This document shows positions 8,167 through 64,000 of a DNA stretch of 64,000 nucleotides, one piece after another. Under the pieces are notes generated by a model that saw only the letters and a program-made list of their open reading frames with translations, was not told where the DNA came from and ran no database searches. The stretch lies in contig JALSHZ010000063.1 in NCBI GenBank assembly GCA_026981985.1, forward strand, positions 1-64,000, written 5' to 3'. Origin of the DNA: Gammaproteobacteria bacterium. GTDB taxonomy: Bacteria; Pseudomonadota; Gammaproteobacteria; UWMA-0217. Made by a program: the position numbers and the translations under genes. Within the stretch, counting starts at the first letter, position 1, and each line of letters begins with the position of its first letter.

Positions 8167-8318
8167 CTAGCTATTCAGTCGGTAGAAAAATAGAGCCGTA
8201 ACTGCTCAGATTGCCGCTAAAGCGCGTCAGATCAAGGCGGGAAATGTGAGTTTACAGGTGTAAATGACCATTTCCCAACACAGAGATGGCGCGTTTCAGT
8301 GGTGAGCTGAGCAGTTAC
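8167..8318 (-). mobile_element. MITE-like hairpin element, copy A (152 bp), imperfect 8-bp target duplication
   Basis: Outer ends ctagctattcag / ctgagcagttac, internal gtaactgctcag; flanks TATTCCGC (8159-8166) and AATTCCGC (8319-8326), 7/8 identical; homologous to copies at 49124 and 57390 in opposite orientation. Confidence 0.85.
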
Positions 8319-49123: not shown

Positions 49124-49321
49124 GTAACTGCTCAGTTCACCACTGGAATGCACCATCTCTCCGTCACCTACAAGGATGTAGGTGACGGGTGTGTGCAGGA
49201 GGGGAAGCTTTGGGGAATGCTCATTTACCCTTGTAGACTCACATTTCCCGCCTTGATCTGGCGTATTCCAGCGGCAATCTGAGCAGTTATGGTTCTACTC
49301 GAGCGAACGCTGAATAGTTAC
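49124..49321 (+). mobile_element. MITE-like hairpin element, copy B (198 bp) with a nested ~50-bp hairpin insert; perfect 8-bp TSD
   Basis: GTAACTGCTCAG...CTGAATAGTTAC; flanks TCGGGTTT at 49116-49123 and 49322-49329. Confidence 0.93.
49161..49188. repeat. Perfect 12-bp inverted repeat nested in copy B
   Basis: CCGTCACCTACA-AGGA-TGTAGGTGACGG; absent from copies A and C. Confidence 0.9.
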
Positions 49322-49355: not shown

Positions 49356-50933
49356 TCAATTACCGCTTGTTCTGTCTTGAACGTCAGAGGGATATGGCCA
49401 GATTTTTCCTTCCAGTCCTCCGAACATGAAAATAATATCGGGATAGGTCCCCCAGTCCCCGGTGAATTGGTCGAAGCCGCTCGACGTATATTGGGGCCTG
49501 GGTGGTGCACCAGGAGCTGTTCTAGAATAAATCGACGTGATATATGGATCTTGATAATAGATATTAGATTGCGCCATGAATACGTCAGAGATATTGCCAT
49601 CACCAAAGCCCCCGGTATTCGTCGTGTTGATGATATTGTCTGGCACATGATCCTTCCCGCTTCCATATTTTACGATGGTTCCGTCAACTTGCCCTGCTAG
49701 ATGCCTTATCACCGCGCGGATACTTTTGGGTGGTTGATCACCTATCGATTCAGTTCCTGCCATACCTTCAGACGTTGAATAGTCGTAAAGTGATCTGTCA
49801 CCCATCCGAGCGAGTGCATCGGCTAATGTACACATAGAGCCGAGATATGCCATCGGGTATGAGAAAGCGTTTGTTGCCCCTGGGCTTGTGCGAATAATAT
49901 CCACATACGTGCCGTCCGGCCAAACTGAATAGCGCAGCGACTCTCTGAAAAATCTTGCTCCTTTGTCGGTTAGGATGGGGTCGTTAGTAAGAATCCCAAT
50001 AATGCCAACAGCGGAAGCTACAACGGATGTGCGATTATTCCATGTGTCATGTATCTGAAAATGTCTAGGACCTCCTGAGTACAAGAATTCTGGGACGCTA
50101 ATCTGTCCCGGGCAGTACTTTCCATCACAGAGATATTTGTCGTTGTATCGGTCAGAGAAGGACTGTTCGATAAACCACTCGATGTGTTTGACGATATAGT
50201 TTCCAGCTGTATTCAACCACGCCTCAAAACGTGTTCGGTCGGTTGCTGCCATATCGTTTTTGATCCACGAATAGGTGATTGCAATACGTCTTAGCCAAGC
50301 AGCTAGAAATTGCTTAGATCCCTGTTCTCGGATGGATTTGGTGCACCATCTGGAGCCGTCAGAAAAATCTATCCCAGCGGTTCTGGTATGAGCGAGTAAA
50401 TATGCTTTCACTTTGTTGAGATATTGTTTGGCATCGCCGTTTTCAGCATAGTCTAATACACGAAATACGAAGCCTGCGCTGTTGGCCCACATGCCCTGTG
50501 GGCCGTTTAGGTCTGGGTGGTTATCTGATGTTGTATCCCAGCATGAGCGCTTGGTTTGTCCTTCCCAAGGAAAAGTGTCTTTGGAGCCGTCCAGGAACAG
50601 TTGTGCATTGGCGAAGATCCTGGTGTCCCAGTGCTCTTTGTAAGCCCCATTCAAGCGTCGGTTGTTCCATACAGCCAGTTCGTCGTCGGTGTAGAATAAT
50701 CCTGGTGGAACTTGACTAGACTGATGATATGGGTCGGGAACGGCCGATGATGCGCCATCAGAGGTTGATGTAGAAGATACTGGTAACGGTGACAATGCTA
50801 ACGGATCTGTACTAAGCGTATCCGGTGTGTTGCTGTCGGTGGTGCTTGGCAAGAGTCCCGGTCCAGGGTCGCAAGCAATGAGCATAGAGACAATGGAGAA
50901 TAACAGAATAATTTGTTTGTATGCTTTCGTCAT
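49356..50933 (-). CDS. Lipoprotein with alginate-lyase-like/heparinase-type alpha-toroid domain (putative polysaccharide lyase)
   Basis: MTKAYKQIILLFSIVSMLIAC lipobox; then GLFYTDDELAVWNNRRLNGAYKEHWDTRIFANAQLFLDG..; GMWANSAGFVFRVLDYAENGDAKQYLNKVKAYLLAH; pattern resembles alginate_lyase-fold proteins. Confidence 0.6.
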   Translation of the reverse strand: MTKAYKQIILLFSIVSMLIACDPGPGLLPSTTDSNTPDTLSTDPLALSPLPVSSTSTSDGASSAVPDPYHQSSQVPPGLFYTDDELAVWNNRRLNGAYKEHWDTRIFANAQLFLDGSKDTFPWEGQTKRSCWDTTSDNHPDLNGPQGMWANSAGFVFRVLDYAENGDAKQYLNKVKAYLLAHTRTAGIDFSDGSRWCTKSIREQGSKQFLAAWLRRIAITYSWIKNDMAATDRTRFEAWLNTAGNYIVKHIEWFIEQSFSDRYNDKYLCDGKYCPGQISVPEFLYSGGPRHFQIHDTWNNRTSVVASAVGIIGILTNDPILTDKGARFFRESLRYSVWPDGTYVDIIRTSPGATNAFSYPMAYLGSMCTLADALARMGDRSLYDYSTSEGMAGTESIGDQPPKSIRAVIRHLAGQVDGTIVKYGSGKDHVPDNIINTTNTGGFGDGNISDVFMAQSNIYYQDPYITSIYSRTAPGAPPRPQYTSSGFDQFTGDWGTYPDIIFMFGGLEGKIWPYPSDVQDRTSGN

Positions 50934-51232
50934 ATGCCTCACAGTTTTGCGCGAGTTGAAATTGATGCAAGAAATTGCAGAGCGCGGGGTATTAGGCCGA
51001 TCCATGCAGCGTACTGGCGAAAGTCGGGCGATGGAGCCAGTATAGCTATTCGAAGCTCTGAATCGTTGATAACAATGGTTGTCGGTGTTGGCGAGAGCCG
51101 CTGCCCGTACTGTTTATTTGTTTCACTGTAGTTTTCTCCCTGTTTCTGGTGCGCCTGCCCAAGCACAATTATTGTTGTTTGTGGCGGTGGTCAGCGGCTG
51201 ACTACCTTTGCTCGAGCAGCTTACATGAGGAA

Positions 51233-51309
51233 TGGCGTCCCCGGCAGGAATCGAACCTGCAACCTACGCCTTAGGAGGGCGTCGCGCTATCCAGTTGTGC
51301 CACGGGGAC
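51233..51309 (-). tRNA. tRNA-Arg(CCT)
   Basis: Reverse complement GTCCCCGTGGCACAACTGGATAGCGCGACGCCCTCCTAAGGCGTAGGTTGCAGGTTCGATTCCTGCCGGGGACGCCA; anticodon loop CTCCTAA. Confidence 0.97.
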
Positions 51310-51431
51310 CAAGTGGGCGTATTGTAGCAGTTCGGTGATTCCAGATAAAACCGGTCGGATTTGCTGCTGGTTACACTGATAAGCAGCGCGTCCTGGTTTT
51401 GGCGGTATGCGTCTTGCTTGTTTGCCATGCA

Positions 51432-51989
51432 CTACAGGTCGTGAACCGTGCGCAAGTGATCAAGTAACCCACCAGCGGCTTTCTCAACCAGATCAAGTAC
51501 GCGTTCGAATTCGTTTGCTCCGCCAGAGTAGGGATCGGGGACTTCTCTTCCCTTGCGGCCTGCTGGGTCGAAATCAAGAAAAAGTCGGAGTTTGCTCCAG
51601 CAGGATTTTGGCACGACACTGCGGACGTCGAGCATATTGGTTTCGTCCATGACCAGAATATAGTCGAAGCGCTCACAATCAATGGCTTCGACTAACCGTG
51701 CCCTGTACTCACTTAGATCATAGCCGCGTTCTTTGGCAGCGGTCTGTGCGCGCGAATCAGGTGGTCTTCCAACATGGTAGGAGATTGTACCCGCTGAATC
51801 GATACCAATTTTGTCTTCTAGCCCGGCTTCCTTGACCAAGCGTGAAAACACGCCTTGTGCGGTAGGTGATCGGCAAATGTTACCCATGCAGACAAACAGC
51901 ACCGAAACTGTCTTCCCTTCAACCAGCGTCGCGGGATCGATGGGTGTGTCTGGATTCTTCTTCGGTTTGGAGCGCCTGAACAGTCCCAT
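51432..51989 (-). CDS. Low molecular weight protein-tyrosine-phosphatase
   Basis: VSVLFVCMGNICRSPTAQGVFSRLVKEAGLEDKIGIDSAGTISYHVGRPPDSRAQTAAKERGYDL..VPDPYSGGANEFERVLDLV. Confidence 0.96.
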   Translation of the reverse strand: MGLFRRSKPKKNPDTPIDPATLVEGKTVSVLFVCMGNICRSPTAQGVFSRLVKEAGLEDKIGIDSAGTISYHVGRPPDSRAQTAAKERGYDLSEYRARLVEAIDCERFDYILVMDETNMLDVRSVVPKSCWSKLRLFLDFDPAGRKGREVPDPYSGGANEFERVLDLVEKAAGGLLDHLRTVHDL

Positions 51990-52173
51990 TGTATTGCATA
52001 CCTGCAGCGAGAGAAGGCGGTTATTCTGAGCCTTCGGCGTATGGCTATCAAGCATGTATGGTTGATCGGTGTAGCGATTCGTTTATGAGCTGTGACAGTG
52101 GTCGCAAGTCAGGGCCAGTCAGACTGCAACATCTCTCCAATACAGGTCTGCAAGCAGCCAATGAGGGGGGTGA

Positions 52174-52947
52174 TCAATCGCTGGATATCGGTCTTTCCAT
52201 CATTGTCGCAGCATTGATCCACAGGCTGATAATCGATGCGCCCGGCGTGGTCGATAAAAGTTGCCGTTCGGCGTTGATGCGCTTCAGTTTAAGTGCCAAC
52301 CGGTAGGCCTGTTTAGCCGCCATATCCGCGACAGAGTGGACGCCGCTGGCTTGGAGCAGATTGGCGACGGGGCTGCTGATGCCTGGAATGCGTAGTAAGT
52401 CGGCAATTTCGCCGAGGCGGATCAATTCGGCTTCTTGCAAGCCGGTCTGTGCGAGCAGTGACGCTTTGCCATCGCTGCTTGCGATATGGCTGAGCAGCTG
52501 AGCCGTTGTTTCGATACCGAGTCTTTGAAACATCGCGAGCTGTTCGTTGCTGAGATCTCCCAGGTCTGCGAGTGGATGGCTGCCAGCCCGTGAATCGATG
52601 CTATCGATACGCGATTGCAGCTGCTGGTTGGTTTGTTCCAATATTTGCAGGCGCCGTAAAATGGCATCGAGATCACTCTCAGGATGTGTTGTGATAACGC
52701 CTTCACTGTTATCCATCAAGCGTGCATTGAGGTCGTGGTTGGCCGATTCGAGCTGCTCTGCCCGAACGAACAGCTCGTCCCGTTCTCTTTCAATACGGCG
52801 TAAATGCTCATGGCAGCTATCCAGCTCCATTTGCAGTGAACGATGGCGGTTGCCAAGCACCAGTGTTCGCAACTGCCAGCCAATCAGCAGTCCAATCAGT
52901 GCCGCCAGGACGAGGCAAAGCAGCATTTTCGTCACCAGATAGATCAT
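52174..52947 (-). CDS. Membrane-anchored coiled-coil protein with DUF4332-like helix-hairpin-helix region
   Basis: N-term TM MIYLVTKMLLCLVLAALIGLLIGWQL, coiled coil, LSNEQLAMFQRLGIETTAQLLSHIASSDGKASLLAQTGLQEAELIRLGEIADLLRIPGISSPVANLLQASGVHSVADMA. Confidence 0.75.
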   Translation of the reverse strand: MIYLVTKMLLCLVLAALIGLLIGWQLRTLVLGNRHRSLQMELDSCHEHLRRIERERDELFVRAEQLESANHDLNARLMDNSEGVITTHPESDLDAILRRLQILEQTNQQLQSRIDSIDSRAGSHPLADLGDLSNEQLAMFQRLGIETTAQLLSHIASSDGKASLLAQTGLQEAELIRLGEIADLLRIPGISSPVANLLQASGVHSVADMAAKQAYRLALKLKRINAERQLLSTTPGASIISLWINAATMMERPISSD

Positions 52948-53726
52948 GGCTCTTTTCCTTGGAGGTCGTTCCGGGGTACCGATTGGAACTCGAATGTGAT
53001 TCTGCGATTGGCTTCGCGACCAGCTGCAGTAGTGTTGTCGGCAATTGGTTCGCTTTCCCCTTTACCAAGCGCTTGCAGGCGTCGGGGCGGTATACCGAGC
53101 TTGGTGAGTTGCTTGGCGACAGCCGTGGCACGTGCCTGGCTGAGCGCGAGATTGTCCTTGGCGCGGCCAATGCTGTCGGTGTGACCGACAATGTGTAGTA
53201 TTTGCTGTGGGCATTGCTGTAATAAATCGGCTATCTGGTGCAATAGTGACAGCGAACCAGGAGCGAGTTCATCGCTGCCAAGTGAGAAATGCAACTTGCG
53301 GTCACCGGTGATTGCCTCCAGTTCGCTTTGGCATTGCTCATGCAGTGCTGATGTTTGGGCTGTGGCAGCCTCATCGGTGGTTGCGGTGGCTTCTTCCGGC
53401 GAGGCTGTTGCGTCGGACCGGGCGTCAGTTGGCGGGGCGCTCGGCTTATGTAGTTGCAGTTCGTCGTGAATCTGTCGGATGCCCCAGACGTTGGCGATAG
53501 ATTCGACTGCCAGTATGCGCTGATCGTCGCTCGTGATGGTGCCACGTAGGGTGATGTCTTGACCATCGACGCTGATATTTAGCTGATCCAGCCCGGCATA
53601 ACCCAGCGCTGCGGCGCTGCGATGGTTCAGATCAGCCTCGATATCCGCCGATTCGATGGTGATGCAGTACCACGACAGGATGCCGAGCAACAGTAGTTCG
53701 AGAAGAATCAGCAAAGGTTGTGACAT
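52944..53726 (-). CDS. BON-domain + OmpA-like peptidoglycan-binding protein
   Basis: N-term TM; BON-like GYAGLDQLNISVDGQDITLRGTITSDDQRILAVESIANVWGIRQIHDEL; OmpA LHIVGHTDSIGRAKDNLALSQARATAVAKQLTKLGIPPRRLQALGKGESEPIADNTTAAGREANRRITFEF. Confidence 0.88.
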   Translation of the reverse strand: MSQPLLILLELLLLGILSWYCITIESADIEADLNHRSAAALGYAGLDQLNISVDGQDITLRGTITSDDQRILAVESIANVWGIRQIHDELQLHKPSAPPTDARSDATASPEEATATTDEAATAQTSALHEQCQSELEAITGDRKLHFSLGSDELAPGSLSLLHQIADLLQQCPQQILHIVGHTDSIGRAKDNLALSQARATAVAKQLTKLGIPPRRLQALGKGESEPIADNTTAAGREANRRITFEFQSVPRNDLQGKEP

Positions 53727-53934
53727 GGAATAGCGGTGCCGTGGGATCGGGGTTGCTGCTATAGACAGGTGGATGAGCCCAATGGTTCCCGTCACAGAGG
53801 CCATTGCCTTGCCGCCTCTGGAGTAGCCAAGAGAAGCAGTTACTCCACACACTATATAGGGTGGTTGCCACTTACGCCGATCGCAAAAAGTAGTATAATC
53901 GCGCTCCAATTCTGGTCATGCCCTGGAGGCGCGA

Positions 53935-55191
53935 ATGTTCTCAGCAGATATGAAGATAGCCGGCTACGATGATGAGCTGTGGAGTGCAATGGACAACGAA
54001 GCCCGTCGTCAGGAAGAGCACATCGAGCTGATCGCGTCGGAAAACTACACCAGCCCCCGCGTCATGGAAGCGCAGGGTTCGGTGCTGACGAACAAGTACG
54101 CTGAGGGCTATCCCGGCAAGCGTTACTATGGCGGTTGCGAGTATGTGGATATCGCCGAGCAGTTGGCGATCGATCGCGTAAAGGCCTTGTTTGGTGCCGA
54201 CTATGCCAATGTCCAGCCGCATTCGGGTTCGCAGGCAAATGCTGCTGTCTATCTGGCATTGCTATCGCCGGGCGACACCATTTTAGGCATGAGTCTTGCG
54301 CATGGTGGCCATCTGACCCATGGCGCCAAGGTGAATTTTTCCGGAAAGATCTTCAACGCGATCCAGTATGGTCTTGATACTGATACTGGTGAGATCGACT
54401 ATGCCGAGGTTGAGCGGCTCGCAAAGGAGCACCAGCCGAAAATGATCGTAGCCGGGTTTTCCGCCTATTCCCGTGTCGTCGACTGGCAGCGTTTTCGTGA
54501 CATTGCGGACGAAGTGGGCGCCTGGCTGTTTGTCGATATGGCGCATGTGGCCGGTCTGATTGCGGCTGGTGTCTATCCAAGCCCAGTGGGCATCGCCGAT
54601 GTGACGACCTCGACGACGCACAAGACGCTGCGCGGTCCTCGCGGTGGCATTATTTTGGCAAAGTCCAACCCCGATATTGAAAAGAAGCTCAACTCGCTAG
54701 TGTTTCCTGGTACTCAGGGCGGGCCATTGATGCACGTCATTGCCGCCAAGGCCGTGGCGTTCAAGGAGGCGCTTGAGCCTGACTTCAAAGACTACCAGGC
54801 GCAGGTGGTTCGCAATGCCAGGGCCATGGCCGAAACCATGATGTCACGGGGATATAACATTGTTTCCGGGGGTACCGACAACCATCTCTTTCTGGTCGAT
54901 CTGATCGATAAGCCGATGAACGGCAAGGAAGCGGACGCTGCGCTGGGCAGCGCAAACATTACCGTGAACAAGAATTCAGTGCCGAATGATCCTGAATCAC
55001 CGTTTGTTACCAGTGGTATCCGTATCGGCTCACCAGCAATCACTACACGCGGTTTCAATGAAGATGACTCGCGCCAGTTGGCGGGTTGGATCTGTGATGT
55101 ACTCGATAACATCGGTGACGAAAAAGTGATTGCCGAAGTGAAGCAGAAGGTACTCGCGATCTGCGCCAGATTGCCGGTTTACCGGAAGTAG
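53935..55191 (+). CDS. glyA: Serine hydroxymethyltransferase
   Basis: [64 protein letters not shown]. Confidence 0.98.
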
Positions 55192-55201
55192 CGTTTCCGT
55201 C

Positions 55202-55699
55202 ATGCGCTGCCCATTCTGCAATGCGACAGAGACCAAAGTCATTGACTCGCGTCTGGCGAACGAGGGTTCCCAGGTACGGCGACGGCGCGAGTGTCTGGAA
55301 TGTTCAGAACGCTTCACGACCTATGAAACCGCCGAACTGAAGTTGCCACGCGTGGTCAAGCGCGATGGTCGCCGCGAGGCCTTCGACGAGCATAAGCTCC
55401 GCAGCGGCATCGAGCGATCGCTGGAAAAGCGACCGGTACGAACCGAAGACATCGATGCCGCTGTCTCACGCATCAAGCACAAGCTCCTCAGCAGTGAGCG
55501 TGAGGTGTCGTCTTCGCGGCTTGGCGAATGGGTCATGGAGGAGTTGCGCAACCTCGATCAGATTGCCTATATCCGCTTTGCCTCGGTCTACCTGAGCTTC
55601 GACGATATGGACGCGTTCCGCGAAACCATCGAACGCCTGGAGCGAGATCTGTCTCCTGAGGCGCGCAAACATCAGATTTCCTTTCTGGATACCGAATAG
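55202..55699 (+). CDS. nrdR: Transcriptional repressor NrdR
   Basis: [42 protein letters not shown] zinc ribbon + ATP-cone. Confidence 0.98.
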
Positions 55700-55701
55700 C
55701 A

Positions 55702-56817
55702 GTGCCTTTCTCCGCTATTGACCACGCGATGATGGCACGGGCGCTACGTCTTGCGCGGCGCGGATGCTACACAACCCAACCCAATCCGCGTGTGGGCTGC
55801 GTGCTGACGCGCGATGGCGACATTGTCGGTGAAGGGTTCCACGAATACGCAGGCGGACCGCATGCCGAGATCAATGCATTGGCGCAGGCCGGGGATTGGG
55901 CACGTGGTGCCACCGCTTATGTCACGCTGGAGCCGTGCAGCCATACCGGCAAGACCGAACCCTGTTCACAGGCATTGATTGAAGCAAAAGTGCAGCGCGT
56001 CATTGCCGCGATGGAAGACCCCAATCCCCTGGTCTCCGGTCGGGGTTTGCAACAGCTACGAGAGTCTGGCATTGACGCAAGCTCAGGTTTGATGGCCGAT
56101 GAGGCAGCAGCACTGAATCCGGGCTTTATCAAACGCATGCGTGAGGGCATGCCGTGGGTGAGACTGAAAATGGCCGCCAGTCTCGATGGCCGTACCGCCA
56201 TGGCATCGGGTGAGAGCAAGTGGATTACTGGCACGGCTGCGCGACAAGATGTGCAGCGCCTGCGGGCTCGCAGTGATGCTATTCTCACTGGAGTCGGCAC
56301 GGTGCTCGCCGATGATCCATCGATGAATGTCAGGCTCGGCAAAGACGAGCTTGGCATTCAACGCGCCCCACATCAGCCACTGCGCGTGGTGCTCGATACC
56401 GATTTGCAAACGCCGCCAGCGGCGCGGATCTTCGGTGAAGATGGTCGTCTGATCATCCTCCACGACAGTGATGAGCGCGATCGACAGCAGGCGCTCGAAG
56501 ACAAGGGGGCGGAACTCGTTCAGATGCCACGCGTCGATGGTCGACTCGATCTGCATCGGGTGTTGCAGTGGTTGGCCAAACGGGAAGTGAACGAATGCCA
56601 TGTCGAGGCTGGCTCCGTACTCGCGGGTGCATTGTTACGCGCGGCGCTGGTGGATGAACTGATCATCTATATGGCACCGCATCTGATGGGTGATGCGGCA
56701 CGCGGGATTGCTGCAATCCCGGGCCTGCTGACGATGTCCGATCGTATTGCGGTCGAGATCGACGATATCGTGGCGGTGGGTAAGGACTGGCGCATCACGG
56801 CGAAGGTGGCGAGGTAG
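55702..56817 (+). CDS. ribD: Bifunctional riboflavin deaminase/reductase (GTG start)
   Basis: TQPNPRVGCVLTRDGDIVGEGFHEYAGGPHAEINALAQAGDWARGATAYVTLEPCSHTGKTEPC. Confidence 0.97.
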   Translation: MPFSAIDHAMMARALRLARRGCYTTQPNPRVGCVLTRDGDIVGEGFHEYAGGPHAEINALAQAGDWARGATAYVTLEPCSHTGKTEPCSQALIEAKVQRVIAAMEDPNPLVSGRGLQQLRESGIDASSGLMADEAAALNPGFIKRMREGMPWVRLKMAASLDGRTAMASGESKWITGTAARQDVQRLRARSDAILTGVGTVLADDPSMNVRLGKDELGIQRAPHQPLRVVLDTDLQTPPAARIFGEDGRLIILHDSDERDRQQALEDKGAELVQMPRVDGRLDLHRVLQWLAKREVNECHVEAGSVLAGALLRAALVDELIIYMAPHLMGDAARGIAAIPGLLTMSDRIAVEIDDIVAVGKDWRITAKVAR

Positions 56818-56820
56818 TCG

Positions 56821-57393
56821 ATGTCAACGATCGTTGTGGTAAGAAAGAATGGCACCGCCTGTATCGCGGCCGACACGCTGACCACCTTTGGCGATACGCG
56901 CCAGTCGGCAGCGTTCGATGCGGCCAGCGACAAGATTTTCAGCTGTGCACAAAGCCATATTGGCATTGTCGGCAGCGCCGCGCATCAGATGGTGCTGGAA
57001 AGTGCCTGCGAGCAGGTCGGCACGCTCGACTTTCTCGGCCGCCGTGCGATTTTCGAAAGTTTTCTGCAATTGCATTCGGTGCTGAAGGAGAAGTACTTTC
57101 TCAACCCAAAGGAAGACGAGGATGATGCCTACGAGTCGACACAAATCGATGCCTTGCTCATCAATCGTCGTGGCATCTTCGGTGTCTTCTCATTGCGCGA
57201 AGTCTTTGAATACACGCGCTTCTGGTCGATCGGTGCTGGCTCGGAATTTGCGCTCGGTGCAATGCATGCGCTCTATGAGCGTCTGGAGACCGCCGAGGAG
57301 ATTGCCAAAGCGGCGCTAGCCGCCAGTGCGGAATTCAACAGTACCACCGCGCTGCCACTGACCTGCTACAGTGTGCAACTTGAGGAATCGTAA
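56821..57393 (+). CDS. Proteasome-type Ntn hydrolase (HslV/BPH-like); C-terminus altered by MITE insertion
   Basis: MSTIVVVRKNGTACIAADTLTTFGDTRQSAAFDAASDKIFSCAQSHIGIVGSAAHQMVLE..; HslV/20S-beta-like N-term; stop codon TAA at 57391-57393 lies inside the MITE terminus. Confidence 0.82.
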   Translation: MSTIVVVRKNGTACIAADTLTTFGDTRQSAAFDAASDKIFSCAQSHIGIVGSAAHQMVLESACEQVGTLDFLGRRAIFESFLQLHSVLKEKYFLNPKEDEDDAYESTQIDALLINRRGIFGVFSLREVFEYTRFWSIGAGSEFALGAMHALYERLETAEEIAKAALAASAEFNSTTALPLTCYSVQLEES

Positions 57394-57531
57394 CTGCTCA
57401 GCTTACCCCCTTATTTGCGTCAACTCTGCGTTGGAAGTGCTCATTTACACTTGTAAACTCCGCGCTTCCGCCTTGATTTGACGCAAAACGGGGGCAATCC
57501 GAGCCGTTACCTAACCTCGCTGAGTAGTTAC
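57390..57531 (+). mobile_element. MITE-like hairpin element, copy C (142 bp); perfect 8-bp TSD
   Basis: GTAACTGCTCAG...CTGAGTAGTTAC; flanks GAGGAATC at 57382-57389 and 57532-57539. Confidence 0.93.
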
Positions 57532-57563
57532 GAGGAATCACAACCGGAGGTACTGCTAACCTG

Positions 57564-58244
57564 ATGTTTACCGGAATTATTGAATCGGTCGGCGAGATCC
57601 GTGCGGTTATGCCGCAAGGTGGCGACCAGCGCTTCGACATCGGCATCGGGAAACTGGATATGCGCGATGTTGCACTGGGTGACAGTATCGCCGTCAATGG
57701 TGTCTGCCTGACGGTCATCGAATTCGGTCAGGACTGGTTCATGGCCGATGTGTCGAACGAGACACTGGCCTGTACCACGCTGGGAGCGCTCGCCAAGGGG
57801 GCGCGCGTCAATCTGGAAAAGGCGCTGACGCCAACCACCCGGCTCGGCGGTCATCTGGTCAGTGGTCATGTGGACGGGGTTGGTGAGATCGTTTCATTGG
57901 CAGATGATGGCCGCTCGGTGCGGGTCATGATCCGGGCACCCGAAACCTTGCTGCGTTACATTGCCGCGAAAGGCTCGATCTGTGTTGAGGGGATCAGCCT
58001 GACGGTCAACAGCATCGAGGGCGATGTCTTCGGGCTCAATATCGTGCCGCATACCATGCAGGAAACCAACCTCAGCAAGGCTACGGTTGGCACGCGGGTG
58101 AATCTCGAAGTGGATATCATTGCGCGCTATCTTGAACGGCTGCTGCAAGGCGGTGGCACCGAGGATGCCCATTCCGGTGCAGCTGGGGAAACGATCTCCC
58201 GGACCATGCTCGCTGCCGCCGGATTCATGGACAACAAAAGCTGA
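57564..58244 (+). CDS. ribE: Riboflavin synthase alpha chain
   Basis: MFTGIIESVGEIRAVMPQGGDQRFDIGIGKLDMRDVALGDSIAVNGVCLTVIEFG; repeat LGGHLVSGHVDGVGEI. Confidence 0.97.
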   Translation: MFTGIIESVGEIRAVMPQGGDQRFDIGIGKLDMRDVALGDSIAVNGVCLTVIEFGQDWFMADVSNETLACTTLGALAKGARVNLEKALTPTTRLGGHLVSGHVDGVGEIVSLADDGRSVRVMIRAPETLLRYIAAKGSICVEGISLTVNSIEGDVFGLNIVPHTMQETNLSKATVGTRVNLEVDIIARYLERLLQGGGTEDAHSGAAGETISRTMLAAAGFMDNKS

Positions 58245-58251
58245 GACTGCG

Positions 58252-59391
58252 ATGGCATTCAATACTGTAGAAGAAATCCTCGATGATATTCGTGCTGGCA
58301 AGATGGTCATCATTGTCGACGACGAGGATCGGGAAAACGAAGGCGATCTGTTGATGGCAGCATCGATGGTGCGGCCGGAAGATATCAATTTCATGGCGCA
58401 GTATGGCCGTGGCCTGATTTGCCTGACACTGACGCGCGAGCGTTGCCGCCAGCTGGCGCTGCCGTTGATGGTCGACGGTGGCGCGGCCGATTCCCATGGC
58501 ACCAATTTCACGGTATCAATCGAGGCTGCCGAGGGTGTGACCACCGGCATCTCAGCCTATGACCGGGCCCATACCATTCGTCAGGCGATAGCCCCCAATG
58601 CAAAGCCGGAGGATATCGTCCAGCCGGGTCATGTTTTCCCGCTGATGGCCAAGGCCGGCGGCGTTTTGACCCGGGCAGGGCATACCGAAGCGGGATGCGA
58701 TCTGGCGCGCCTCGCAGGGCTGGAGCCGGCGGCGGTCATTGTCGAGATTCTCAACGAGGACGGAACAATGGCGCGGCGTCCCGATCTGGAGCGCTTCGCC
58801 GCGGAACATGGCTTGAAGATCGGCACCATCGAGGATCTGATCCACTATCGCGTCAAGAATGAGAAATCGGTCGAGCGCGTTGCGCAAACGCATATCACCA
58901 CCGAGTACGGTGAGTTCGAGCTGGTGACCTACCAGAACCATGTTTCCGGGCATATTCATTTTGCGCTGGTGAAAGGCGATGTCAGCGCTGGTGAACCGGC
59001 GCTGGTGCGGGTGCACCTGCAGGATGCGCTGGTGGATTTTCTGTCAGTGACCGGCGAAGGCTTTGGCTGGCCACTGCATGATGCGATGCAGCGCGTCAAC
59101 GAAAGTGGTTGTGGCGTGGTAGTGATTCTGCGTCACCCTGAGCCCGACAGCAGTCTGGTGCAGCGGATCCAGCATCTCGGTGAGCGTGCCAATGCAGGGA
59201 TCGAAAAGCCCAGTGATGCGCCCGAAGACGTGCGTACCTTTGGCGTTGGGGCTCAGATCCTGCTCGACCTGGGCGTCAGAAAGATGCGCCTGCTGTCAGC
59301 GCCCAAGAAATTCCATGCGCTTGGTGGCTTCGATCTCGAAGTGGTCGATTACATCTGGGACAAATCCAGAGATAGCAGCAGCGGCGTATGA
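58252..59391 (+). CDS. ribBA: 3,4-dihydroxy-2-butanone-4-phosphate synthase / GTP cyclohydrolase II-like
   Basis: [71 protein letters not shown]. Confidence 0.95.
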
Positions 59392-59443
59392 ATACCGGCA
59401 GCAATCCGATAAAATACCGCCTTTATTCCAGACACTCGACGCA

Positions 59444-60400
59444 ATGAACCCCGATTATCTCGATTTTGAACAACCGATTGCCGAGCTTGAAGCAAAGATC
59501 AACGAGCTTCGTTACGTTGGGGATGGCAGTGGCGTCAATCTGGGTGACGAGATCGCCAAGCTGGAGGAAAAGGGGCGCAGTCTGACCGAGTCCATCTTTT
59601 CCAAGCTCACCCCGTGGCAAGTGTCGCAGCTGGCGCGTCATCCGCTACGTCCTTATACGCTGGACTACACTACATCGCTGTTTGCCGAGTTCCGCGAGCT
59701 GCATGGCGACCGTGCTTTCAAGGACGATCCGGCAATCGTCGCCGGAATTGCCCGGTTCAATGAGCAAACGGTCATGCTCATTGGCCACCAGAAAGGCCGT
59801 GACACCAAGGAAAAGCTCAAGCGGAATTTTGGCATGCCGCGTCCCGAAGGGTATCGCAAGGCGCTCAGGCTGATGAAGCTGGCGGAGCGGTTTCGTATGC
59901 CCATCATTACCCTGATCGACACGCCGGGTGCCTATCCTGGTGTGGGTGCTGAAGAACGGGGGCAGAGTGAAGCCATTGCGCGCAATCTGATGGAGATGTC
60001 CGAACTGACCGTGCCAATCATCTGCATCGTGATTGGGGAAGGTGGTTCAGGCGGCGCGCTGGCGATCGGCGTCGGCGACCATGTGATGATGCTGCAATAT
60101 AGCACCTATTCGGTAATCTCACCCGAAGGCTGTGCGTCGATTCTGTGGAAGAGTGCCGACAAGGCGTCCGATGCCGCCGAAGCCTTGGGGATTACCGCTG
60201 AAAAGCTGAAGGAACTGAAGCTGATCGACGAAGTGATTCCGGAACCGCTCGGTGGTGCCCACCGTGATCTCGATGCCGTCAGCAGCGCGATGGCTACCGC
60301 CATCGATGCGGCCCTGACCCGGTTGAAAAGCTATACCAAAGATGAGCTGGTGCAGCGCCGGTATGACCGACTTATGTCCTATGGGCAGTTTACGGGCTAG
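59444..60400 (+). CDS. accA: Acetyl-CoA carboxylase carboxyltransferase alpha subunit
   Basis: [73 protein letters not shown]. Confidence 0.98.
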
Positions 60401-60466
60401 TTCCATCTTCGCAAGACAGCATCCCCTGATGGCTGTGCATCCATATTCATTCTGGGTTGCTCAGGT

Positions 60467-61750
60467 TTGACGCACTCACGACCATTCACAGCCGATTCTC
60501 TGTTAGCCGGTCTCCAGCGACTGGATGTCACGACAGGTTATTGTGTTGCCCTCAGTGGCGGAGCCGATTCTGTTGCCCTGCTGATTGCCATGGCCGAACT
60601 TCGTTACCAACTGCAGAAGCCCCTGCGGGCGGTTCATGTTCATCATGGCTTGCAACAGGAAGCCGATGACTGGGCAGCATTTTGCCGGGATATCTGTCAC
60701 CAACTGAAGATTCCACTTCAGGTAATTGAAATCGACATTGAGCGGGAGTGCCGCGAGAGCCTGGAAATGGCTGCGCGGCGTCAGCGCTACGCCGCATTGG
60801 CACAGTCGTTGCTGGCGGATGAGGTGCTGCTGACTGCACATCATCTCGATGACCAGGCTGAAACCTTTCTGTTGCACCTGCTTCGAGGCGCTGGCGTCGA
60901 TGGTCTGGCTGCGATGCCCACTGTTCGGGTATTTTCCCGAGGCCTGCTGTGCAGGCCGCTGCTGGCATGGAGCCGGGAGCAGTTGGTTGCCTATCTACGC
61001 GAGCGGGGAATCGATTGGATCGAAGATCCCTCCAATGATGATGTCAGTTTCGATCGGAACTTTATCCGTCAAACCATCATACCGATGATCGCATCGCGCT
61101 GGCCTGCGGCGGCGAAGTCCATTTCGAGGGCGGCAGGTTTGCAGGCTGAGCAACGTCAGCTCAACGAGAGCCTGGCAAGCAACGCACTTGCCAGCTGTTA
61201 TGCCTTCAACACAGGCAGTCTGCAGTTAGATAGCTTGCGGTCGCTGGATGCGATAAGGAAGCGACTGGTGTTACGCAGTTGGTTGAAGCTGGGTCAGCCT
61301 CAGCTCACACTCTCCCAGGCGCACCTGGAGGCACTAGACGCCAGGCTGGCTTCTTCCACGAACTTCAGCTACCAGCTTGCGGGTGTGCAACTTCAGTCAT
61401 TCTCTGGAGCGCTTTTCAAGCGTCAGACTGACGCCAATAACCCAGTATTAGCGTATTTCTGGCAGCTCGACTGTCGGCTCCATATCGAGGTGCTGGGGGT
61501 TGTCATCGAACCATCACAGATCCTGCGTCATTTTCCGGGGCTTGGGCCTGGCGATACGCTGCGTATTACCAATCGGCGTGGGGGTGAAACGATTTACGAT
61601 CCAGGCGTCGGGCACCGGCCACTGAAAAAGATGCTGCAATACTGGCGGGTGCCTCCCTGGAGGCGTGCTCAGTTGCCATTGATCTGGTATGCGGAGCAAC
61701 TGATCTGCGTTCCGGGATACTGGGTGACCAGGGAGCTGGATCGGGATTGA
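60467..61750 (+). CDS. tilS: tRNA(Ile)-lysidine synthase (TTG start)
   Basis: GYCVALSGGADSVALLIAMAELRYQLQKPLRAVHVHHGLQQEADDWAAFCRDIC; RRQRYAAL..TAHHLDDQAETFLLHLLRGAGVDGL. Confidence 0.97.
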   Translation: MTHSRPFTADSLLAGLQRLDVTTGYCVALSGGADSVALLIAMAELRYQLQKPLRAVHVHHGLQQEADDWAAFCRDICHQLKIPLQVIEIDIERECRESLEMAARRQRYAALAQSLLADEVLLTAHHLDDQAETFLLHLLRGAGVDGLAAMPTVRVFSRGLLCRPLLAWSREQLVAYLRERGIDWIEDPSNDDVSFDRNFIRQTIIPMIASRWPAAAKSISRAAGLQAEQRQLNESLASNALASCYAFNTGSLQLDSLRSLDAIRKRLVLRSWLKLGQPQLTLSQAHLEALDARLASSTNFSYQLAGVQLQSFSGALFKRQTDANNPVLAYFWQLDCRLHIEVLGVVIEPSQILRHFPGLGPGDTLRITNRRGGETIYDPGVGHRPLKKMLQYWRVPPWRRAQLPLIWYAEQLICVPGYWVTRELDRD

Positions 61751-61991
61751 TTCAGTCATCCGATTCAGCCATACCGTTTGTCGGTTCAGGCAGGCGGTTC
61801 CAGATCGAGAACTTTCTTCTTGCACAGTTCTCAAAACGGCACGCCGATTACGGCTTCCAACTACATTCTTGAGTAGCATTCTCTTCCAGCCAGGTGCTTA
61901 GGATCCCGTGTGGTTCCCGGCATATTGAATATCGCAGGCGCTGGCCCGACAGCAAGCGGGAAGTGCCTAAACTGGAAGTTGCGACCACCCG

Positions 61992-63644
61992 ATGATCTAC
62001 ATCTCAGGATTCATAGTAGCCATGCTGTTGACCATGGTATTCATACCACCGGTCAAGCAGCTTGGTTATCGTTTTGGCCTGGTGGATACGCCCAATCAGC
62101 GCAAGGTCCATTTGACCCCGATTCCCCGGATTGGCGGGGTTGCGATGATTCTGGGTGCCACAGTGCCGCTTGTGCTTTGGTTGATCATCAGCCCGGCGTT
62201 GCTGAGCTATCTGCTGGGAGCAACGCTGATCATCATTTTTGGTGTTCTCGACGATGCTTTCGATCTCGATTTCAAACTGAAGTTTGTCGTTCAGACCGTT
62301 GCCGCACTGATTGTGGTTGTTGTTGGTAACATACAAATACACAGCTTTTCGCTGTTTGGACATCTCTTCGAACTGCCTTACTGGTTGTCCGTTGGTCTGA
62401 CGGTTTTCTTTTACCTGGCAGTGGTCAATGCAGTTAACTTCGCCGATGGACTGGATGGCCTGGCAGGAGGGATTACGCTCCTCAGCCTGATCGCCCTGGC
62501 GGGTGTTGCGTATGACTCAGGCGTCAAGGATGTTTTGTTGATTTCCGTTGTGCTGGTCGGTAGCGTGATGGGGTTTCTGCTGTTCAATAGCCACCCGGCG
62601 CAGGTATTCATGGGGGATGGTGGAAGCCAGTTTCTCGGCTTTTCACTGGCGGTCATGTCGGTCTATCTGACCCAGCGTGAGGGTGCAATGCTAAGCGCAT
62701 TCACGCCGTTGCTGATCGTCGGCATGCCGCTGATCGATCTGGTCTATGTCGTGGTATCGCGGAAGGTCCGGGGTCTGTCACCGTTTCACCCCGACAAGCG
62801 GCATATTCATCATCGTCTTCTTGCACTCGGCCTGCGGCAGTATGGTGCGGTATTTGTGATCTACCTGTTGCAGTCGGGCATTATCGTATCAGCCCTCGTC
62901 TTTCGTGACAGGGGAGACACCTTTTTTCTGGCGCTGTACCTGTTCTTTCTAGGGATGATCAGCTTGCTGATCACCACCGCACTAAGATATGGCAGGCTTC
63001 CTGGCGCTAGCGCCATCAACCGGCTGATGTATGGCCCAGTGCGAAGACTGCGTGTTCTGGTGAAAAGAAAGCGGCTGCCGGGTATTGCGCAGAAGATTGC
63101 GTTGTTTTCCATGGTTGGCTATCTGGTGCTCGGGACATTGATCCTTCATGAAGTCAAGTTTGAAGTGGGAATGATTGCAGCTGGCTTATGGTCGCTGTTT
63201 TTTGTCCTCAAACCGCGCCAGGTAACGGAAAAGATGTCGGGTTGGTTTATACGCTTCGTCTACTATCTGACGGCCAGCGGCGTGTTGTTTCTGACATACA
63301 CATCACCCGAGATCTTCGATGTCTATCGCCTCTGGATCAAGGTGTTTTTCTCGATATTGGCGGTCGTGATATTCATTGCGATCGAGTCTTCCGGCGATGA
63401 GCGTCTGAAACTGCGCCCGATCGATTTTCTGGTTGTGACCACGGCGCTGATATTGCCGGGAGTCGTTGGGCTGTCAGATATCGACCAGGTTTACTGGTTT
63501 GTGGCGGCGCACCTGTTGGTGCTCTTTTATGGTGTGGAACTGGTGCTGCTGTCCTACCGTGAATCTGCGCGTGTCAATCTGATCCAGTATCTATACACGA
63601 CCCCACTGCTGGTGCTGGCGGTTCGTGGCCTGTCTGGTATTTAG
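61992..63644 (+). CDS. MraY/WecA-family undecaprenyl-phosphate glycosyl-1-phosphate transferase with C-terminal membrane extension
   Basis: VDTPNQRKVHLTPIPRIGGVAMI, VNAVNFADGLDGLAGGI, FMGDGGSQFLGFSLAVMSV, SPFHPDKRHIHHRLLALGL; ~200 extra C-terminal residues with TM segments. Confidence 0.92.
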   Translation: MIYISGFIVAMLLTMVFIPPVKQLGYRFGLVDTPNQRKVHLTPIPRIGGVAMILGATVPLVLWLIISPALLSYLLGATLIIIFGVLDDAFDLDFKLKFVVQTVAALIVVVVGNIQIHSFSLFGHLFELPYWLSVGLTVFFYLAVVNAVNFADGLDGLAGGITLLSLIALAGVAYDSGVKDVLLISVVLVGSVMGFLLFNSHPAQVFMGDGGSQFLGFSLAVMSVYLTQREGAMLSAFTPLLIVGMPLIDLVYVVVSRKVRGLSPFHPDKRHIHHRLLALGLRQYGAVFVIYLLQSGIIVSALVFRDRGDTFFLALYLFFLGMISLLITTALRYGRLPGASAINRLMYGPVRRLRVLVKRKRLPGIAQKIALFSMVGYLVLGTLILHEVKFEVGMIAAGLWSLFFVLKPRQVTEKMSGWFIRFVYYLTASGVLFLTYTSPEIFDVYRLWIKVFFSILAVVIFIAIESSGDERLKLRPIDFLVVTTALILPGVVGLSDIDQVYWFVAAHLLVLFYGVELVLLSYRESARVNLIQYLYTTPLLVLAVRGLSGI

Positions 63645-63670
63645 CCAGAAAAGATTTTCAGATACCCCGG

Positions 63671-64000
63671 TTATTCGTCTGTAATATTGGCTTTGCGACA
63701 GCCATCGCTGAAGCGAATGTTAACGCATTCGCCTTGGCTTAATTCGTTGGCGTGGCTGATCACTTCACCGTTTTCTGCTCTGGACACAATGGCATAGCCT
63801 CGTCCAAGCACATGATCCGGGTTGAGAAGGTTTAGCGCGGTACTCAAACTATCCACGTGGTGGTGGCGCCGCTTGAGTTGTTCGCGCATATGCTGCTTGA
63901 GATATGTTTTAAGTTGCAGCAATTGTTCCCGCGCCATTTTGATTTGCTGCAGCGGGCGAAGACCCGATAGCGGACGCGCTGTTACCAGCAATTGATGGCG
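63671..64000 (-). CDS. xseA: Exodeoxyribonuclease VII large subunit, C-terminal part (continues past right edge)
   Basis: LLQLKTYLKQHMREQLKRRHHHVDSLSTALNLLNPDHVLGRGYAIVSRAENGEVISHANELSQGECVNIRFSDGCRKANI. Confidence 0.85.
   Translation of the reverse strand, partial: RHQLLVTARPLSGLRPLQQIKMAREQLLQLKTYLKQHMREQLKRRHHHVDSLSTALNLLNPDHVLGRGYAIVSRAENGEVISHANELSQGECVNIRFSDGCRKANITDE

Follow-up and report, generated by a model that had tools for sequence, protein, structure and literature searches.

The gene located between ribD and ribE in the window (the whole 64,000-nucleotide stretch of DNA analysed here) encodes a BPH (Betaproteobacteria proteasome homolog) that carries serine at the N-terminal position occupied by threonine in the solved members of the family. 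The protein belongs to an already published family, the Ser1 BPHs (main text of PMC5777263), whereas the linkage of Ser1 BPHs to the riboflavin operon is apparently new. BPHs are relatives of the proteasome with solved structures but without a known substrate or activity. The placement of bph at ribD and ribE, present in at least 13 gammaproteobacterial families and confined in our sample to one Ser1 clade, offers a first handle on the job of BPH and nominates RibD, RibE, RibBA, NrdR and flavoproteins as candidate partners. We think it probable that bph encodes the single subunit of a homo-oligomeric barrel, an ATP-independent peptidase made alongside the flavin enzymes. The finding also bears on why some relatives of the proteasome use Ser over Thr.

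Identity and active site of the window protein

An Ntn hydrolase gene between ribD and ribE, resembling BPH, had been predicted from the sequence. The open reading frame, whose product begins with MSTIVVVRKNGTACIAADTLTTFGDTR..., was recovered with exactly the predicted coordinates, and its neighbours were verified by Pfam matches (Table 1). Since the stop codon of ribD lies two codons upstream of the bph ATG in the same frame, no longer N-terminus is possible. That bph is more than a chance reading frame is evident from its phmmer match to a solved BPH, its retention in many genomes, and its low dN/dS.

The closest solved structures by phmmer were Cm-BPH (5ovu, E = 1.9e-47) and Td-BPH (5ovs, 3.7e-36), in comparison with just 0.01 for HslV. 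The predicted monomer, modelled from 36 relatives with a pLDDT of 89.7, matched six BPH chains in the PDB above all others (TM 0.84-0.89; 0.89 for Td-BPH), with HslV next at about 0.7. The protein scored 28.8 bits with the HslV model (cut-off 157.75), and 18.1 and 13.6 bits with the bacterial/archaeal 20S beta-subunit models (cut-offs 191.9 and 224, respectively), far too low for a 20S beta subunit. No hslU gene adjoins bph, as had been noted; the genome has its own hslV directly before hslU on another contig (C62:13666-15534). Because BPHs are the top matches by sequence and structure, the HslV and 20S scores fall below the cut-offs, and a separate hslV-hslU pair is present, we can conclude that the window protein belongs to the BPHs and is distinct from the cell's own HslV, an assignment with which profile comparison, gene context and tree agree. 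Despite weak HslV profile matches (E about 1e-6) and an HslU encoded in the genome, a divergent HslV working with HslU is therefore highly improbable; HslU was also absent from the BPH pull-downs described in the main text of PMC5777263. Canonical HslV was found in 29 of 33 genomes bearing a rib-type BPH, counting one genome with a broken copy and two of family f145, and BPH is thus no substitute for HslV.

The window protein has the fold, the length and the Asp17/Lys37/Gly50 set of Cm-BPH and Td-BPH (5ovs/5ovt), and likewise has no propeptide and no adjacent ATPase gene. Its acidic pore loop, nearly identical to that of Cm-BPH, is where confidence in the model was lowest (pLDDT <50 at residues 95-98 and 100-103). 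It differs from both in having Ser rather than Thr at position 1 and Ala at position 139, and in lying between ribD and ribE rather than beside PDC or argG. HslV (ClpQ), the ancestor family, has a fold alike and a similar N-terminal strand, but the long acidic pore loop sets the window protein apart.

In the chain numbering of 5ovs, Asp17, Lys37 and Gly50 of Td-BPH correspond to Asp18, Lys38 and Gly51 of the window protein, and therefore Ser2 corresponds to Thr1. All three residues were invariant in an alignment of 122 rows, duplicate genomes included, so that the catalytic Asp and Lys are both kept. The original prediction proposed Ser as the N-terminal residue unless Thr3 is exposed by further processing. 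Ser2 indeed occupies the position of the catalytic Thr1, with Ser fixed in the clade, and Thr3 aligns with the second residue of the solved BPHs; extra processing is thus unneeded and exposure of Thr3 was rejected. Ser1 BPHs outside Betaproteobacteria were already reported by Fuchs et al. (main text of PMC5777263), with Ser1 and the rest of the active site in common with the window protein. At site 139, 58 of the 78 rib-linked rows have Ser and the other 20 have Ala, as does the window protein; because this site varies inside the family, we do not treat Ser139 as defining a BPH. Covariation of Ser1 with Ala139 was unsupported, as Ser139 is kept in most Ser1 proteins.

Table 1. Positions in the window of bph, its neighbours, predicted functional residues and the inserted element
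Feature	Position	Strand	Basis or remark
nrdR	55202..55699	+	Pfam PF22811, PF03477
ribD	55702..56817	+	Pfam PF00383, PF01872
bph, Ser-type BPH subunit	56821..57393	+	190 aa as annotated, 7 aa fewer due to the MITE; ORF, homology, tree, structure match
Ser2 codon (mature Ser1), predicted N-terminal nucleophile	56824..56826	+	Alignment to 5ovs/5ovu; Ser in 68/68 rib-linked relatives
Asp18 (mature Asp17), active-site residue	56872..56874	+	Invariant in alignment; role according to main text of PMC5777263
Lys38 (mature Lys37), helps deprotonate the nucleophile	56932..56934	+	Invariant in alignment; role according to main text of PMC5777263
Gly51 (mature Gly50), oxyanion-hole glycine	56971..56973	+	Invariant in alignment; role according to main text of PMC5777263
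Acidic pore loop KEDEDDAYES, residues 97-106	57109..57138	+	Aligned with Cm-BPH KEDEDDPYES
Ala139, position of Td-BPH Ser139 (Thr1 contact)	57235..57237	+	Alignment
Target-site duplication GAGGAATC, left copy, inside bph	57382..57389	+	Sequence
MITE, 142 bp, inverted ends GTAACTRCTCAGC/GCTGAGTAGTTAC	57390..57531	+	First four bases complete codon 190 and form the TAA stop of bph
Target-site duplication GAGGAATC, right copy	57532..57539	+	Sequence
Orphaned bph 3' end, ..QPEVLLT then TGA overlapping ribE ATG by one base	57540..57564	+	Sister locus L002 ends ..KPEVMLT
ribE (riboflavin synthase)	57564..58244	+	Pfam PF00677 twice
ribBA	58252..59391	+	Pfam PF00926, PF00925

Gene order and descent of rib-linked BPHs

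Of 369 genomes sampled from the class, 47 gave a hit to the window protein; some of these hits were weak and probably represent other homologs of the proteasome. Among the 40 BPH-positive genomes in which ribD and/or ribE were located, bph adjoins one or both in 32, which span 13 families. Family f145, where the gene has been relocated, and five more families with divergent BPHs account for the remaining eight. Genomes negative for BPH mostly have ribD and ribE side by side, commonly with 8-125 nt between them; where their gap is wide (loci L136-L140), no convincing BPH remnant was found, the few weak tblastn hits lying outside the gaps. A second and larger collection, 80 named loci in GTDB genomes that partly overlap those of the class survey, gave the same picture: Ser1 BPHs stand in the order nrdR-ribD-bph-ribE-ribBA-ribH-nusB-thiL, and the Thr1 BPHs of Betaproteobacteria mostly follow gluQ, often with PaiB-like and S4-domain (hslR-like) genes. 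Of the two search patterns, one had MSTIV as its start and was thus biased to Ser1; the class survey was made without it. A draw from the phylum, serving as positive control, recovered the published PDC context along with Hsp33-like and argG-like contexts, the last two recognized from sequence only.

Among 66 relatives, the distance from bph to ribE was -1 in 17 and did not exceed 27 nt in 61, which supports a single transcript. No FMN riboswitch was detected in positions 50000-64000. The main text of PMC5777263 names argG, PDC and Hsp33 as BPH gene contexts and no riboflavin operon; no description of a link between BPH and riboflavin was found in the literature searched. We call the rib context not found in these sources rather than proven new.

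Once identical rows were removed, rib-linked BPHs had Ser1 in 68 of 68 cases and gluQ-linked BPHs had Thr1 in 27 of 27. The 68 rib-linked proteins and the two f145 proteins form one clade (100/92). The f145 proteins are nested inside it, with their genes located after nrdR and with ribD and ribE elsewhere. The dN/dS of bph was 0.04-0.10 in the computable pairs, lower than that of ribD in the same pairs; these ratios are rough because silent sites were saturated in some pairs. Pairwise distances of bph correlated with those of ribD, ribE and nrdR (rho 0.61-0.70) about as well as the distances of those genes did among themselves (0.65-0.71). bph is under purifying selection and is co-inherited with the rib operon.

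Several loci deserve separate mention. In f145 (L123 and L124) the relocated nrdR-bph pair lies upstream of genes named from sequence as ndk- and rlmN-like, and the start codon of bph is seemingly TTG. A second, distant Ser1 group in family f135 (L128 and L129) grouped with Td-BPH in the tree, a placement that carries a long-branch warning, and its bph adjoins a glycerophosphodiesterase-like gene. There may have been more than one origin of Ser1. At L053, L062, L084, L093, L099 and other Betaproteobacteria loci, a Thr-type BPH follows gluQ and often precedes a PaiB-like gene, whose product has a putative FMN-binding domain (PF04299), as well as an S4-domain gene; this context is not one of the three named in the main text of PMC5777263.

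Proposed function of the rib-linked BPH

According to the main text of PMC5777263, Thr-type BPHs are tetradecamers with barrel architecture that bind epoxomicin, and a partner ATPase was not found. As the purified Thr-type proteins were inert on standard peptides and casein (same source), peptidase activity is unproven for any BPH. We propose that the window protein, of a line descended from HslV, would have its Ser1 exposed by methionine aminopeptidase and assemble into a double-ring barrel of identical subunits, probably 14, with Ser1 turned towards the cavity. Past the acidic pore loop, a limited range of unfolded or damaged proteins or peptides may enter without help from an AAA+ partner. 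Co-transcription with ribD and ribE would make the level of BPH track flavin synthesis, and the likeliest clients may be damaged or surplus proteins in a flavin-rich setting of oxidative stress. Function as an ATP-independent barrel peptidase is what we infer, and a specific role in flavin metabolism is possible. Two points weigh against the peptidase reading: the Ser in contact with the nucleophile has given way to Ala139, and in proteasomes Ser1 is reportedly less efficient than Thr1.

Whether the operon reveals the function is a separate matter. There is an about even chance that bph entered the rib operon a single time, in an ancestral gammaproteobacterium, and was kept there by vertical descent, performing a general protein-quality job unrelated to flavin. 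The single clade is consistent with a single origin of the linkage, the host order nrdR-ribD-ribE-ribBA-ribH-nusB-thiL is stable in its own right, whether bph is present or not, and in f145 bph persists with no rib gene beside it. The neighbours of other BPH clades are PDC, Hsp33, argG or gluQ genes, and because these operons are so different, the fold does not imply a role specific to flavin. What such a passenger would not readily account for is that bph holds this position across 13 families (identity 51-84%), that spacers are very short and stop codons overlap start codons, and that relocation inside the clade was seen in only two genomes of one family.

The opposite view, that RibD, RibE, RibBA or a flavoprotein is a target of BPH for trimming, activation or removal, or that BPH acts on small molecules as an Ntn hydrolase of flavin metabolism, is possible but rather unlikely. 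It draws on the conserved place between ribD and ribE, on the tight spacing and overlap, and on the PaiB-like neighbour of many Betaproteobacteria Thr-type BPHs, although that link may be coincidence. Most genomes of the class, however, make riboflavin without a BPH and usually have ribD directly beside ribE, and its clean absence within one family (f62; G065 compared with G198) argues that the pathway can do without BPH. What was originally called an unclear link to flavin synthesis is a widely conserved gene order, which may or may not have functional meaning. It is unlikely, in our estimate, that the Ser1 BPH is a clade-specific, ATP-independent barrel peptidase of flavin homeostasis, acting for example in turnover of a rib enzyme or of damaged flavoproteins and recruited once into the ribD-ribE junction; if true, this would be the first role assigned to a BPH.

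A MITE at the 3' end of bph

The annotated coordinates of bph were exact, but the end of the frame is not that of the original gene. A MITE with 13-bp inverted ends is inserted there; the G with which it opens is the last base of codon 190, and the TAA that follows serves as the bph stop. Read through the empty site, the gene encodes 197 aa ending in EESQPEVLLT, the length of the protein at the sister locus L002 (DETKPEVMLT), and the junction TGATG forms a one-base stop/start overlap with ribE. The annotated protein of the window species is therefore slightly shortened and the overlap with ribE broken, a truncation peculiar to the window among Ser-type BPHs. The element has 49 matches in the genome. 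Its target duplication in bph is a perfect 8 bp, as it is at many other copies (8 of 8), and because the duplications are identical the insertion is probably recent. Its GTAA ends and 8-bp duplications suggest the IS66 transposase as helper; no match to that transposase (PF03050) was found in this incomplete genome, and IS66 was set aside as the helper.

That bph has been decaying in the window species since the insertion, with a nonfunctional product, seems improbable. Such decay would fit the apparent recency of the event, the loss of a short hydrophobic tail common to near relatives, and the finding of a bph broken in situ in another genome, G187, possibly through sequencing error. Yet the strands and helices of the core domain and the catalytic Asp and Lys are intact, and most other BPHs are without that tail anyway. 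Under the ATP-independent peptidase reading, the MITE, which took away the last seven residues and the overlap of the bph stop with the ribE start, probably left the core peptidase intact.

The broken gene of G187 (L132; G187:C1:1041124-1041689) lies in a genome of a single contig and is split over three reading frames, with ribD and ribE intact on either side. In G047, a species of the same genus, bph is intact; the break reflects either decay or sequencing error. Downstream of ribBA in the window, accA- and tilS-like genes, named from sequence, replace the usual ribH-nusB-thiL (59180-61750), and no ribH was located. The window also contains a pair of 88-nt inverted repeats, 85% complementary and 41 kb apart, at 8191-8278 and 49210-49297.
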